Origin: Alphaproteobacteria bacterium
GTDB taxonomy: Bacteria > Pseudomonadota > Alphaproteobacteria > UBA8366 > Aestuariispiraceae
Reading direction: 5' to 3'
Assembly (NCBI GenBank): GCA_030065235.1
Contig: JASJDC010000002.1
Location: 458,001-522,000, forward strand
DNA: 64,000 bases
Under the pieces are notes generated by a model. That model ran no database searches and was not told the origin of the DNA. It saw only the letters and a program-made list of their open reading frames with translations. Shown here one piece after another: positions 56,896-62,287 of the stretch. Numbering within the stretch: position 1 is the stretch's first letter; the number at the start of each line of letters is the position of its first letter. The position numbers were made by a program, and so were the translations under genes.

Positions 56896-57234
56896 ATGAC
56901 CTATGTGGTGACCGAGGCCTGCATCAAATGCAAATACCAGGATTGTATCGAAGTATGCCCGGTGGATTGCTTTTATGAAGGGGAGAATATGCTCGTCATT
57001 CACCCGGACGAGTGTATCGATTGCGGGGTCTGCGAACCGGAATGCCCGGCCGAAGCGATCCTACCGGACACCGAGGCCGAAGCTGAGAAATGGCTGGAAT
57101 TGAACCGGGAATATTCGGAGAAATGGCCGAATATCGTGGCCATGGGCCAGCCGCCGGAAGACGCCGACGCCTATCTGAATGTCGAAGGCAAGTTCGAGAA
57201 GCATTTCAGTCCGAATCCCGGCCAGGGGTCTTAG
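56896..57234 (+). CDS. fdxA: 7Fe ferredoxin FdxA
   Basis: 112 aa. Begins [20 protein letters not shown] and carries the Cys pattern of Azotobacter-type ferredoxin [10 protein letters not shown] with CPVDC for one 3Fe-4S and one 4Fe-4S cluster, then [12 protein letters not shown]. The C-terminal 55 residues are the acidic extension of this subfamily. Strong RBS AGGAG. The gene precedes carD by 548 bp; a fdxA-carD pair is common in alphaproteobacteria. Electron partner unknown. Confidence 0.93.
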
Positions 57235-57782: not shown

Positions 57783-58283
57783 ATGGCGAAAGCGAAGTAC
57801 AAATCCGGCGATCATGTTGTCTATCCGACCCATGGCGTGGGCAAAGTTCAAGGTGTTGAAACCAAGGAAATCGCCGGCGCCACCTTGGACCTGATCGTGA
57901 TTGAGTTCGACAAGGACCGCATGATCCTGCGGGTGCCGGTCGCAAAGGCGGATGAATCCGGATTGCGCAAACTCTCCTCGCCGGATCAGATGAAGACGGC
58001 GCTGAAGACGCTCAAGGGCAAGAGTCGCGTGCGCCGCACCATGTGGTCGCGCCGGGCCCAGGAATACGAAGCCAAGATCAATTCAGGGGACCCGGTGGCG
58101 ATCGCCGAGGTTGTGCGCGACCTGTTCCGCAATACCAATCAACCCGATCAGTCCTACAGCGAAAGGCAGCTCTATCAGGCGGCGCTCGACCGCTTGGCGC
58201 GGGAATTCGCCGCCGTCGAAGAAATCGAAGAAGAAGAGGCGGCGACGAAACTGGAGGAAATGCTGCAAAAGGCGGCGGCCTGA
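57783..58283 (+). CDS. carD: CarD family transcriptional regulator (CdnL-type)
   Basis: 166 aa. N-terminal RNA polymerase-interacting Tudor-like domain (about 1-65: YKSGDHVVYPTHGVGKVQGV, DKDRMILRVPVAKADESGL) and a C-terminal helical DNA-binding domain (about 70-165: RRTMWSRRAQEYEAKINSG, SYSERQLYQAALDRLAREFA). CarD/CdnL stabilises the open complex at housekeeping promoters by contacting RpoB. A strong terminator follows. Cotranscription with fdxA is unlikely because of the 548-bp spacer. Confidence 0.92.
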   Translation: MAKAKYKSGDHVVYPTHGVGKVQGVETKEIAGATLDLIVIEFDKDRMILRVPVAKADESGLRKLSSPDQMKTALKTLKGKSRVRRTMWSRRAQEYEAKINSGDPVAIAEVVRDLFRNTNQPDQSYSERQLYQAALDRLAREFAAVEEIEEEEAATKLEEMLQKAAA

Positions 58284-58350: not shown

Positions 58351-58445
58351 TTGCCGCGGCGCGCTGTAATTCTTAAGGTCGAACCCATAGCCTGGTTCTC
58401 GGCTGCACGCGGCGGGCCCAGGCGTCGAGGATGGCGGCCCTAAAC

Positions 58446-59303
58446 ATGACGGATCACCCCGATACGGCGCGCGGCGACGGCGCGGAGCTCCCGGCGACGA
58501 CGCGCGCCATTGGCATGTATCCCAGCATGAGGGCGGCCGGCCGGAATTGGGCGATTGGGGCCATCCATGGCGACGTCGAGAAGCTCGAGGCGCTGCACGA
58601 CGCCCTGGCCCCCTTGCTGCGGGCCGGGGATACGGTGGTCTACCTTGGCAACTATCTCGGATACGGGACCGGCGCCGCAGAGGTGGTGGACGAATTGCTG
58701 CGGTTCCGAAGCTGGTTTCTCGCCTTGAAACCCTTCGTGCATCCCGCCGACATCGTGCATCTGCGCGGGGCGCAAGAGGAGATGTTCGACCGGCTGCTGC
58801 AGATTCAATTCGCAACCGATCCGAAGGAGACCCTGACCTGGATGCTGGATCGGGGGCTTGAAGCCACGATCGTCGGGTATGGGTCGGACGTGCAGTCGGC
58901 CTTTCAAGCGGCGGGCGGCGGCGCCTTGGCGATGACCTATTGGACGTCGGCGCTGCGCAAGGCGATGCAGGCGAAGGACGGCCACGCCGCTTTCTTCTCG
59001 CACTTGCGGCGGGCGGCCTATCTGGACAATGGCGCGGCGTTGTTCGTGAGCGCCGGGTTGGATGTCGATAAACCGTTGCGGCTTCAGACAGACGCACTGT
59101 GGTGGGCGTCGCGCAGTTTTGAGGATATCGAAGAACCGTATCGCGGCTACGCTCGGATCGTTCGCGGCTACGACCCGGAACAGAGAGGGTTCGCCGAGAC
59201 CGGATGTACGATTTCTATCGACGCCGGCAGCGGTCGCGGCGGCGACCTGTTGGCGGTTTGCCTCGATCAAGCAGGCGCGGTCGAGCAGTTCCTGACCGCC
59301 TGA
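58446..59303 (+). CDS. calcineurin-like phosphatase-fold protein with degenerate active site (pseudophosphatase)
   Basis: 285 aa from the ATG at 58446 (a GGCGG lies about 7 nt upstream); an ATG at 58431 adds 5 residues. The order of strands and motifs matches PPP-type metallophosphoesterases, but the ligand motifs are altered: GDIHG reads GAIHG (about 38-43, His kept, Asp lost), GDYVDRG reads GNYLGYG (about 68-74), GNHE reads GAQE (about 108-111), the HAGL segment reads SAGL (about 202-205), and GHTP reads GYDP (about 241-244). Catalysis by the usual two-metal mechanism therefore seems impossible. Lies between carD and rpoH, so a regulatory or binding role is plausible. The assignment is from motif comparison by eye. 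Confidence 0.7.
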   Translation: MTDHPDTARGDGAELPATTRAIGMYPSMRAAGRNWAIGAIHGDVEKLEALHDALAPLLRAGDTVVYLGNYLGYGTGAAEVVDELLRFRSWFLALKPFVHPADIVHLRGAQEEMFDRLLQIQFATDPKETLTWMLDRGLEATIVGYGSDVQSAFQAAGGGALAMTYWTSALRKAMQAKDGHAAFFSHLRRAAYLDNGAALFVSAGLDVDKPLRLQTDALWWASRSFEDIEEPYRGYARIVRGYDPEQRGFAETGCTISIDAGSGRGGDLLAVCLDQAGAVEQFLTA

Positions 59304-59550: not shown

Positions 59551-60435
59551 ATGGCACATGTCGACGATCCGCAAACGCAACGCGCCAATCTCTCTTTCAT
59601 CAAAGCCTCGATGCGCGAGCCGCTTCTCTCGCGGGAAGACGAACAGGATTATGCGCGGCGCTGGCGCTCTGACGGCGACGAGGAAGCCCTGCATCGGTTG
59701 GTGCGCGCCTATACGCGGCTGGTCGTCAGCACCGCCGGCAAATTCCGAAATTACGGGCTGCCGATGGGCGATCTGGTGCAGGAAGGCAATGTCGGCCTGA
59801 TGCAGGCGGCCGCCCGGTTCGAGCCCGAGCGCGACGTGCGCTTCTCGACCTACGCCTCCTGGTGGATCCGCTCGGCGATGCAGGATTACGTGCTGCGCAA
59901 TTGGTCGATCGTACGCACCGGCACGACCGCGGCGCAGAAATCCCTGTTCTTCAATCTCCGGCGTCTACGGGCCAAAATCAGCGACTCGCCGAACGGCCGC
60001 ATGACCCATTCCGGCCGGCAGTTCGTCTCAACCGAATTGCGGGTCGCCGTCGAGGAGGTCGAGGCCATGGAAATGCGCCTCGCCGCATCGGATCAGAGCC
60101 TGAACGCCACGATCTCGGACGGCTCGGAGGACAATTGGCAGGATTTCCTGGCCGACAGCCGTCCCGATCCTGAATCGGTCGTCGGCGACGCCCATGACTC
60201 CGATACGCGGGCGCGCTGGCTGCATGAGTCGATCAGCCAACTGTCCGACCGGGAACAGATCATCATCAATGAGCGCCGCATGGTCGATGACGGCGCGACG
60301 CTGGAAGAATTGGGCAAGAAGCTGGGCGTCAGCAAGGAACGGGTGCGCCAGTTAGAGCACCGGGCGCTGGGCAAGCTGCGCACGGCCCTGTTGGCGCGGA
60401 CCGATACGCCAGGCGACCTGATGCTCGAATCCTGA
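59551..60435 (+). CDS. rpoH: RNA polymerase sigma factor RpoH (heat-shock sigma-32)
   Basis: 294 aa with AAGGAG before the ATG. Sigma-70 regions: 1.2 (LLSREDEQDYARRW), 2 (LVVSTAGKFRNYGLPMGDLV, RFSTYASWWIRSAMQDYVL), the RpoH box QKSLFFNLRRLRAKI (compare QRKLFFNLR in E. coli), region 3, and 4.2 (TLEELGKKLGVSKERVRQLE). Directs transcription of chaperone and protease genes after heat shock. Convergent with the SNase-like gene. Its 5' region has no obvious RNA thermometer that I could fold by eye. Confidence 0.95.
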   Translation: MAHVDDPQTQRANLSFIKASMREPLLSREDEQDYARRWRSDGDEEALHRLVRAYTRLVVSTAGKFRNYGLPMGDLVQEGNVGLMQAAARFEPERDVRFSTYASWWIRSAMQDYVLRNWSIVRTGTTAAQKSLFFNLRRLRAKISDSPNGRMTHSGRQFVSTELRVAVEEVEAMEMRLAASDQSLNATISDGSEDNWQDFLADSRPDPESVVGDAHDSDTRARWLHESISQLSDREQIIINERRMVDDGATLEELGKKLGVSKERVRQLEHRALGKLRTALLARTDTPGDLMLES

Positions 60436-60454: not shown

Positions 60455-61348
60455 TCATTTCTCGTCGGCCTCGCGCAGCCGAATCTGAGCGGGTTCCGTT
60501 ATCTCCATAAAGGGTCCGTTATAGAACCGCACCGAACCGCGGGCCTCGACGGTCTGTCCGATCAGCGCCTCGAAGGACGGGATTCCGAGAGACCGCCGAA
60601 TGGGTCCGCGCGGGCCGGTCAGACCCAGCGTGACATCGCTGCGCCAATCTACGCCGAAATTCACGAAAATTGCGCCGCCGACCCGTGCGACGTCGCGCAC
60701 TGCGCCAGCCAGCACCGCGAATCCCGTCGGATCGATATCGGGATCATCCGCCGGCAGCACCCGAAAGCGCCCGTCGCCCCACAGGCCGCGTCCCGCCATC
60801 CGGGCCGCGTACTCGAAAACGCGAAACGCCTCGGCGGCGTCGGGCCGGTCCGCCCGGCCGGAAAACCGCGCCGCGCCGGCGCGCAACAGACGCTCCTGCA
60901 ACCAGACCCCGTCAATCGAGACGAAGGGCGACCGGAGCCGGCCATAACGGTCCCGACTCGCCGCGCAGAGGGTCAGGGAACGGCCGAGACCGGACGCCAG
61001 CAGCGCCCGCGCCAAGCCCGACGGTCTTTCCGTGAGTTCGAAATCAAGCCCGCCGAGAATAATGCTGTCGCCGGCGCGAGTCTTCGCCAGGCCGGCATTG
61101 GAAATCTCTTGCAAAACAAACGCGCCCCCGCCATCCGGCCGCGACGGATGCTCGCAAAGGAACAGTGGGCCGTCCGTCTCGGCGGCGCCGAGCGCAGGAC
61201 CTGCGAGAAACCCGCCGATCATGGCCAATGCCGCGAGCGCCGAATGAACGATTGATCGGGCGGTTGACCGGAACCCCGCGCCGACTAGGCTCTGTCTCCA
61301 ACCGTCGCGCCGCGGCGTGGATTTGGAGGCGCCCACATGTCCGCTCAT
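60455..61348 (-). CDS. secreted SNase/OB-fold-like protein lacking typical catalytic residues
   Basis: About 297 aa; the start is uncertain (ATG at 61348, GTG at 61336), both within or next to the divergent peptidase start. A signal peptide follows (SALAALAMIGGFLAGPALGA). The middle part resembles staphylococcal-nuclease-like domains: SLTLCAASRDRYGRLRSPFV, WLQERLLRAGAARF, AARMAGRGLWGDGRF. The canonical RLxGIDxPE segment reads ILGGLDFELTERP, so the active-site Arg and Glu appear absent, while the DRYGR Arg is kept. A C-terminal OB-fold-like segment (GQTVEARGSVRFYNGPFMEI) follows. Probably a non-catalytic envelope protein. Confidence 0.72.
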   Translation of the reverse strand: MSGHVGASKSTPRRDGWRQSLVGAGFRSTARSIVHSALAALAMIGGFLAGPALGAAETDGPLFLCEHPSRPDGGGAFVLQEISNAGLAKTRAGDSIILGGLDFELTERPSGLARALLASGLGRSLTLCAASRDRYGRLRSPFVSIDGVWLQERLLRAGAARFSGRADRPDAAEAFRVFEYAARMAGRGLWGDGRFRVLPADDPDIDPTGFAVLAGAVRDVARVGGAIFVNFGVDWRSDVTLGLTGPRGPIRRSLGIPSFEALIGQTVEARGSVRFYNGPFMEITEPAQIRLREADEK

Positions 61349-62287
61349 TCTCTCTATGCTCCCATCGAGGCGCATAGAAGCGGTTTCCTGCGCGTCGATC
61401 CTCTGCACTCCCTCTATTGGGAGGAAAGCGGCGCCCGGACCGGTGCGCCGATCCTGTTCCTACATGGCGGTCCGGGCGGCGGATGTTCGCCGGGCCATCG
61501 CCGGTTCTTCGATCCCAAACACTACCGCATCGTGATGTTCGACCAGCGCGGCGCAGGCCAGTCGAAGCCGAATGCTGAAATCCGCGGCAACGACACACCG
61601 AGCTTGATTGAGGATATCGAAACCTTGCGGGCCCATTTGGGGATCGAGCGTTGGATCCTGTTCGGCGGTTCTTGGGGCTCCACTCTCGCATTGGCCTACG
61701 CTCAGGCGCATCCGCACAGAACGGTCGGATTGATCCTGCGGGGGGTTTTCTTGGGGCGCCGGTCGGAGGTGGACTGGTTCTTCGAAGGCATGCGGGTGTT
61801 TCACCCGGAAGCGTCGCAGGATTTCATCGCGTTCCTGCCGTCCGACGAGCGCGCCAAGCCGATGTGGTCCTACTATCGGCGCCTTTGCGACCCCGATCCG
61901 GCCGTGCATCGCCCCGCCGCGTCCGCCTGGGCCCGCTATGAGGCGCGCTGCGCCACGCTGAAGCCGAATCCGAAATTGGTGGCGGAATTGGGCGAGGCCG
62001 ACAGCGCCTTGGCTCTGGCGCGGCTCGAGGCGCATTATTTCGTCAACGATTTGTTCCTGGCCCCGGATCAGTTGCTGCGCGACGCCGACCGGCTGGCGCG
62101 CACGCCCGGGCGCATCGTCCAGGGCCGGTATGATTCGGTCTGCCCGCCTGTTTCCGCTTTCGACCTGGCGCAAGCCTGGCCGGCAGCCGATCTGGACATG
62201 GTCGACGACGCCGGCCACTCGGCCAATGAACCGACGATCACCGCGGCCCTGGTGCGGGCGGCCAACGATTTCCGCGAGCTTGGCTGA
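61337..62287 (+). CDS. pip: proline iminopeptidase
   Basis: 316 aa alpha/beta hydrolase that releases N-terminal proline. HGGPGGGCSPGHRRFFDP oxyanion region, DQRGAGQSKPNAE, nucleophile elbow GGSWGSTLALAYAQ (about residue 110), acid Asp in VQGRYDSVCPP and His in VDDAGHSANEP. The full motif set of the prolyl aminopeptidase family is present and length is normal. Start overlaps the divergent SNase-like gene, and a downstream ATG is not needed. Confidence 0.92.
   Translation: MSAHSLYAPIEAHRSGFLRVDPLHSLYWEESGARTGAPILFLHGGPGGGCSPGHRRFFDPKHYRIVMFDQRGAGQSKPNAEIRGNDTPSLIEDIETLRAHLGIERWILFGGSWGSTLALAYAQAHPHRTVGLILRGVFLGRRSEVDWFFEGMRVFHPEASQDFIAFLPSDERAKPMWSYYRRLCDPDPAVHRPAASAWARYEARCATLKPNPKLVAELGEADSALALARLEAHYFVNDLFLAPDQLLRDADRLARTPGRIVQGRYDSVCPPVSAFDLAQAWPAADLDMVDDAGHSANEPTITAALVRAANDFRELG

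Follow-up and report, generated by a model that had tools for sequence, protein, structure and literature searches.

In PPP enzymes, the residues of the GDxHG, GDxxDRG and GNHE motifs and of two later His-containing motifs are ligands of metal and phosphate, and the usual phosphate clamp consists of the Arg of the DRG motif together with the Arg of an MWIR motif. According to its own paper, PfPPP8 of Plasmodium is the first PPP-type pseudophosphatase, and the same source describes the Asp residues of GDxxDRG as ligands in PPP enzymes (PMC10317984). The pseudophosphatase literature that we found concerns eukaryotes, judging by titles and abstracts; the work joining pseudophosphatase, bacteria and metallophosphoesterase is, by its title and abstract, a trypanosomatid study, and no description of a bacterial PPP pseudophosphatase family like the one considered here was found in the open-access literature searched. 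CarD/CdnL is described as a general RNA polymerase factor (PMC5324124). In Caulobacter, CdnL is reported to be cleared by ClpXP on starvation, with a trigger that the report leaves unexplained and for which a (p)ppGpp-sensitive adaptor is suggested (PMC11034885). In the open-access literature searched, no paper was found that ties CdnL or a CarD family regulator to a metallophosphoesterase.

The window (the whole stretch of 64,000 nucleotides that was analysed) encodes a PPP-like protein, here called X, downstream of carD in the following arrangement.

56896..57234, + strand: fdxA, ferredoxin (NCBIfam FdxA_Protbact), the start of a recurrent fdxA-carD-X order
57783..58283, + strand: carD, CdnL type (Pfam PF02559, CarD_TRCF_RID, and PF21095, CarD_C); protein C-terminus LQKAAA
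58314..58344, + strand: terminator-like hairpin between carD and X (stricter hairpin scan; also present in the looser scan)
58431..59303, + strand: X, putative PPP-like pseudophosphatase gene (open reading frame, homology to canonical PPP proteins, orthologue alignments)
59551..60435, + strand: rpoH-type sigma factor, RpoH2-like (NCBIfam PRK07500, E 2.5e-117)

The reading frame of X is open throughout in the window and encodes up to 290 amino acids. There are three candidate starts: 58431, 58446 (the second ATG, which was the start in the initial annotation) and 58515 (M29), the last of which agrees with the start of many homologues; the conserved domain starts around residues 30–36. When searched alone, the window protein matched neither Pfam nor NCBIfam at E values up to 1, nor did it give a credible match in the PDB; a profile of its relatives was needed to place it. 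Among 59 genomes searched, one of them the source genome, 46 gave a match; 38 of the 59 hold a strong orthologue, at E 5e-48 or lower, two of these 38 being split over contigs, and the remaining matches are weak. The source genome has a Metallophos domain at five other places.

The X profile, built from an alignment of 30 X proteins, was compared with a profile of canonical PPP proteins, for which 14 weak matches were fetched and 13 aligned, one short protein being left out. The 13 canonical proteins carry motifs of the GDIHG, GDYVDRG, GNHE, VHAG and VHGHTP type, with invariant Asp, His, Asn and Arg residues; the set matches NCBIfam PRK11439/PRK09968, and its profile matches RLPH2 (5vjv), a bacterial metallophosphoesterase (4j6o), lambda phosphatase (1g5b) and an ApaH-like protein (2qjc). 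The two profiles align over 221 columns with an hhalign probability of 99.8% (E 3.8e-29), and 26 residues are conserved in both sets. At the level of sequence profiles, this shows that X shares ancestry with bacterial PPP phosphatases, the resemblance being beyond chance, and by profile homology it supports retention of the PPP fold. X has its order of motifs in common with the bacterial PPP phosphatases and their kin (PRK11439/PRK09968, 1g5b, 5vjv, 4j6o); whereas the canonical bacterial proteins keep the GDxHG, GDxxDRG, GNHE and His motifs, X has lost them. The best PDB match of the X profile is 2qjc (E 3.3e-5), a likeness to the ApaH and ApaH-like diadenosine tetraphosphatases, and the ApaH model PRK00166 is the NCBIfam model touched by most X members (14 of 30, best E 1.2e-6); however, these matches are weak, X is without the catalytic residues, and the window protein itself matches neither this nor any other NCBIfam model at the cut-off given above.

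The former catalytic motifs of the window protein are as follows.

58557..58571, + strand: former motif I, GAIHG (residues 43–47; canonical GDIHG), Asp lost, His (H46) kept
58647..58667, + strand: former motif II, GNYLGYG (residues 73–79; canonical GDYVDRG), both Asp and the Arg lost in the window protein
58767..58778, + strand: former motif III, GAQE (residues 113–116; canonical GNHE), Asn and His lost, Glu kept
59046..59063, + strand: former motif IV, VSAGLD (residues 206–211; canonical VHAG), His lost in the window protein
59160..59177, + strand: former motif V, VRGYDP (residues 244–249; canonical VHGHTP), both His lost, Arg near-invariant at the first His site

These losses were followed in 150 distinct X sequences, obtained as the best match under E 1e-40 from each of 176 loci (36 from relatives, 80 named loci that are the best 80 of at least 530 relatives, and 60 from a wider sample, some genomes being present twice). 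The Asp of motif I is found in none of the 150, so that GDxHG is absent, and its His is found in 135. At motif II, the first Asp occurs in four sequences, with Asn at residue 74 in 143, and the second Asp in none, residue 77 being Gly in 149 and Ser in one; no sequence has GDxxDRG, and the Arg of the DRG motif (residue 78) is present in 44. GNHE is likewise not retained as a motif, with Asn in five and His in two of the 150, Gln at residue 115 in 140, and E116 in all 150. The His of motif IV is kept in 62 sequences and the last His of motif V (residue 247) in none, and the window protein is without both; R245 is present in 145 and Tyr or Phe occupies residue 247 in 129. Nearly all catalytic-motif residues are therefore lost throughout the X clade. 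Two distinct X sequences (L020 and L023), which are among the four with a motif II Asp, read GDFLGHG; in all four, the motif I and motif V ligands are still lost.

The altered state is itself conserved. In a quick tree (LG+G4), 92 X rows all lie on one side of a branch from 13 canonical PPP rows, with SH-aLRT support of 100. For 32 close X pairs, dN/dS ranges from 0.010 to 0.296 with a median of 0.106 (the same genomes recur in four of the pairs, and dS is saturated in some), and X is under strong purifying selection. Forty-one columns are at least 93% identical across the 150 relatives, and at 25 positions X is at least 90% conserved yet departs from the canonical majority, including N74, G77, Q115, R245, W40, R93, W171 and W224. 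As a set, the ten former catalytic columns have a conservation of 0.704 vs 0.600 for random columns, a difference that is not significant, 10% of draws being as high. The old active site has partly settled into a new state (N74, G77, Q115 and R245) and partly drifted (residues 78, 114 and 207). By its sequence, X is thus a phosphatase homologue with lost catalytic residues and a conserved altered state, the features by which a pseudophosphatase is recognised.

Of the 385 genomes sampled from the window's class, 134 have a strong X match. In this search the strong matches stop at E 9.8e-46 and the next match listed is at 1.8e-18; intact or intermediate X orthologues were sought below this gap among the 16 matches listed, and all 15 that were fetched have intact motifs I–III, the sixteenth (G049, L040) being already a member of the canonical set. 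Across a phylum-wide sample, an X match at E 1e-25 or better was found in 13 of 398 genomes, all 13 of them in the window's class. Among the named loci (the best 80 of at least 530 relatives), 70 titles are of Alphaproteobacteria, 44 of these Rhodospirillales; eight titles do not resolve the class, and two name other classes, both being metagenome bins. Species of Magnetospirillum and Kiloniella occur among the named matches. Plasmid records gave a single weak X match, with 26.7% identity.

The initial annotation had read PPP motif order with replaced residues (GAIHG, GNYLGYG, GAQE, SAGL and GYDP), and the sequence reads as it described, with the profile alignment in agreement. Its statement that the motif I Asp is replaced holds throughout the relatives, with the added detail that H46 of the same motif is kept. 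Its proposal of a PPP relative that has lost its catalytic residues is supported, and the selection analysis and the single clade show this state to be conserved; the check that it suggested, on the altered residues across orthologues, found the losses to be common to the 150 distinct relatives. Orthologues with intact ligand residues, which it had named as evidence against this reading, were not found among the matches examined.

On the same strand and no more than 900 bp upstream of X, carD was found in 34 of the 36 loci of relatives, the window being one of them, and in 50 of 60 wider loci, the latter taken from 60 of the 134 X genomes, mostly one per family; the other 10 wider loci are without carD within 900 bp. 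For 12 X genomes in which carD is not beside X or the contig ends, a carD match is present in 11. In the class sample, 336 of 385 genomes have a carD match, comprising 132 of the 134 with X vs 204 of the 251 without it (Fisher p 9e-8, ignoring kinship and genome size). In 46 loci, pairwise distances of X are correlated with those of CarD at r 0.61 and with those of FdxA at 0.27, the 95% range of the difference being 0.03–0.47; this is a weak test because FdxA is short.

An rpoH match lies no more than 900 bp downstream of X in 31 of the 36 loci of relatives, again counting the window, and in 20 of 60 wider loci (19 by script and one overlapping frame below its cut-off, L139); contig ends cut three misses among the 36 relatives' loci and one rpoH miss among the 60. 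The nearness of X to rpoH is much less constant than its nearness to carD. The placement of X between carD and rpoH in the initial annotation stands, with the rpoH gene corrected to a second, RpoH2-like sigma factor, which falls below the rpoH_proteo cut-off, the stronger RpoH match of the source genome being on another contig (C12). The source genome has two strong RpoH-type matches, and the copy in the window fits PRK07500 best. Beside it, a 317-aa open reading frame (60455-61408, - strand) has no NCBIfam match at E 1e-10 and by eye is thermonuclease-like. X loci without an rpoH match have no constant downstream neighbour. Eleven loci without an rpoH match after X (L035, L138, L140, L145, L152, L161, L169, L181, L182, L185 and L190) have in common an ORF cluster close to X, which on inspection by eye looks like an M48 lipoprotein peptidase.

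Taken together, X is very probably a non-catalytic PPP-like protein. The residues of the usual PPP chemistry are absent and the gene is kept by selection, which makes binding the natural alternative, and X would probably work by binding rather than by dephosphorylation. We propose that X is no longer a metal-dependent phosphatase and would have been retained as a binding protein, in which the emptied pocket, with Asn74, Gly77, Gln115 and Arg245 nearly fixed, could hold a small ligand without metal or pack against a partner. X may then modulate the adjacent transcription machinery, with CarD on RNA polymerase as the most plausible target. A role as a CarD-side regulator is plausible, and the chance that X targets CarD or RNA polymerase is put at not far short of even; for the joint reading, a non-catalytic PPP-like binding protein that plausibly regulates CarD or RNA polymerase, we estimate a probability of roughly 0.4. 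The role of regulatory adaptor suggested in the initial annotation is one that we infer in the same conditional sense, part of the gene order being independent of X. The alternatives considered below overlap with one another, and their odds need not sum to 1.

The alternative that survives best is that X has a housekeeping role unrelated to CarD and that its place beside carD is inherited gene order, a serious contender although the odds lean against it. Among 20 carD loci of genomes that have no strong X match (taken near the top of the carD match list, several sharing a genus, and one, L202, ending at a contig end just past carD), fdxA precedes carD in 16; the fdxA-carD order thus persists without X, and the gene order is partly independent of it. 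Of 84 loci, 30 (the window among them) have a terminator-like hairpin between carD and X, vs 0.4 expected from base-composition shuffles, and the two genes are therefore often not one transcription unit. A carD-X operon is spoken against by these hairpins, as judged by base-composition shuffles only; the looser hairpin scan, with two matches in 2.2 kb, is without excess over its shuffles (mean 2.5). Against a purely inherited order stand the position of X directly downstream of carD in distant families, in the 50 of 60 wider loci, and the presence of carD in all but two of the 134 X genomes.

It is improbable that X is still an enzyme, with another chemistry in the pocket or with displaced ligands. 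Candidate ligands are available in H46, H185, E116, D211, D221 and D264, which are strongly conserved (134–150 of the 150 X sequences); however, H46, H185, E116 and D264 need no new role in X because they are conserved in canonical PPPs too. Nearly all X sequences lack both Asp residues of motif II, the Asn and His of motif III and the final His; nor does X conserve the canonical MWIR-motif Arg, the residue aligned with an Arg in lambda phosphatase.

Control of the sigma factor encoded downstream, with RpoH2 as the partner of X, is slightly less probable still. The close downstream position of rpoH in most relatives' loci, the window among them, favours such a partnership; in the wider sample rpoH is near X in only a third of the loci vs five-sixths for carD, which weakens RpoH as the main partner of X. 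The carD gene is also followed by rpoH in 4 of the 20 loci without X. These are the loci L200, L209, L217 and L218 (the last two from the same genus), in which the order fdxA-carD-rpoH is found with X absent, and this suggests that X was lost from, or inserted at, one conserved place.

X might also bind phosphorylated residues without cleaving them, as some eukaryotic pseudophosphatases do, a role that we regard as a long shot. Among the roles described for pseudophosphatases is the sequestration of phosphoprotein substrates (PMC10317984). However, with the Arg of the DRG motif in fewer than a third of the X sequences and that of the MWIR motif not conserved, both are mostly absent in X, and the usual phosphate clamp is therefore mostly gone; R245 could be a substitute for a lost clamp Arg.

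That X is a decaying phosphatase copy on its way out is scarcely credible: although the catalytic residues have mostly disappeared and no family model recognises the window protein, gene decay of the X family is ruled out by the identical losses and the 41 highly conserved columns in 150 distinct relatives and by dN/dS far below 1, and it is further opposed by strong X matches even in genomes of 1.2–1.6 Mb and by the open frame in the window.

A more specific version of the preferred CarD-side reading is that X represents a bacterial PPP pseudophosphatase family serving as a dedicated CarD partner, in which a metal-free pocket would sense a small molecule (for example an alarmone) and relay the signal either to CarD on RNA polymerase or to the turnover of CarD; as a whole we consider this version unlikely. 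X touches the question, raised for Caulobacter, of what directs CdnL to ClpXP when cells starve (PMC11034885). As a direct answer to that question X is spoken against by the AA tail of CarD, which occurs at a similar frequency in loci without X (16 of 20) and with it (75 of 86).

A conserved, emptied PPP clade beside carD would, if the reading is right, bring pseudoenzyme regulation into bacterial transcription. Among described systems, CarG of Myxococcus resembles the reading proposed for X as a separate protein needed with a CarD-family RNA polymerase factor (PMC4374960). CarG differs from X in being a 170-residue, zinc-associated protein reported from myxobacteria only, and it is described as binding CarD, not CdnL (PMC4374960). 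PfPPP8 of Plasmodium is comparable to X in having a PPP-type domain with a broken GDxxDRG motif (GNLINRG in PfPPP8), and it is presented as the founding member of a family (PMC10317984). Unlike X, PfPPP8 is eukaryotic and located in the basal complex of the parasite, and the change reported for it is in motif II (PMC10317984).
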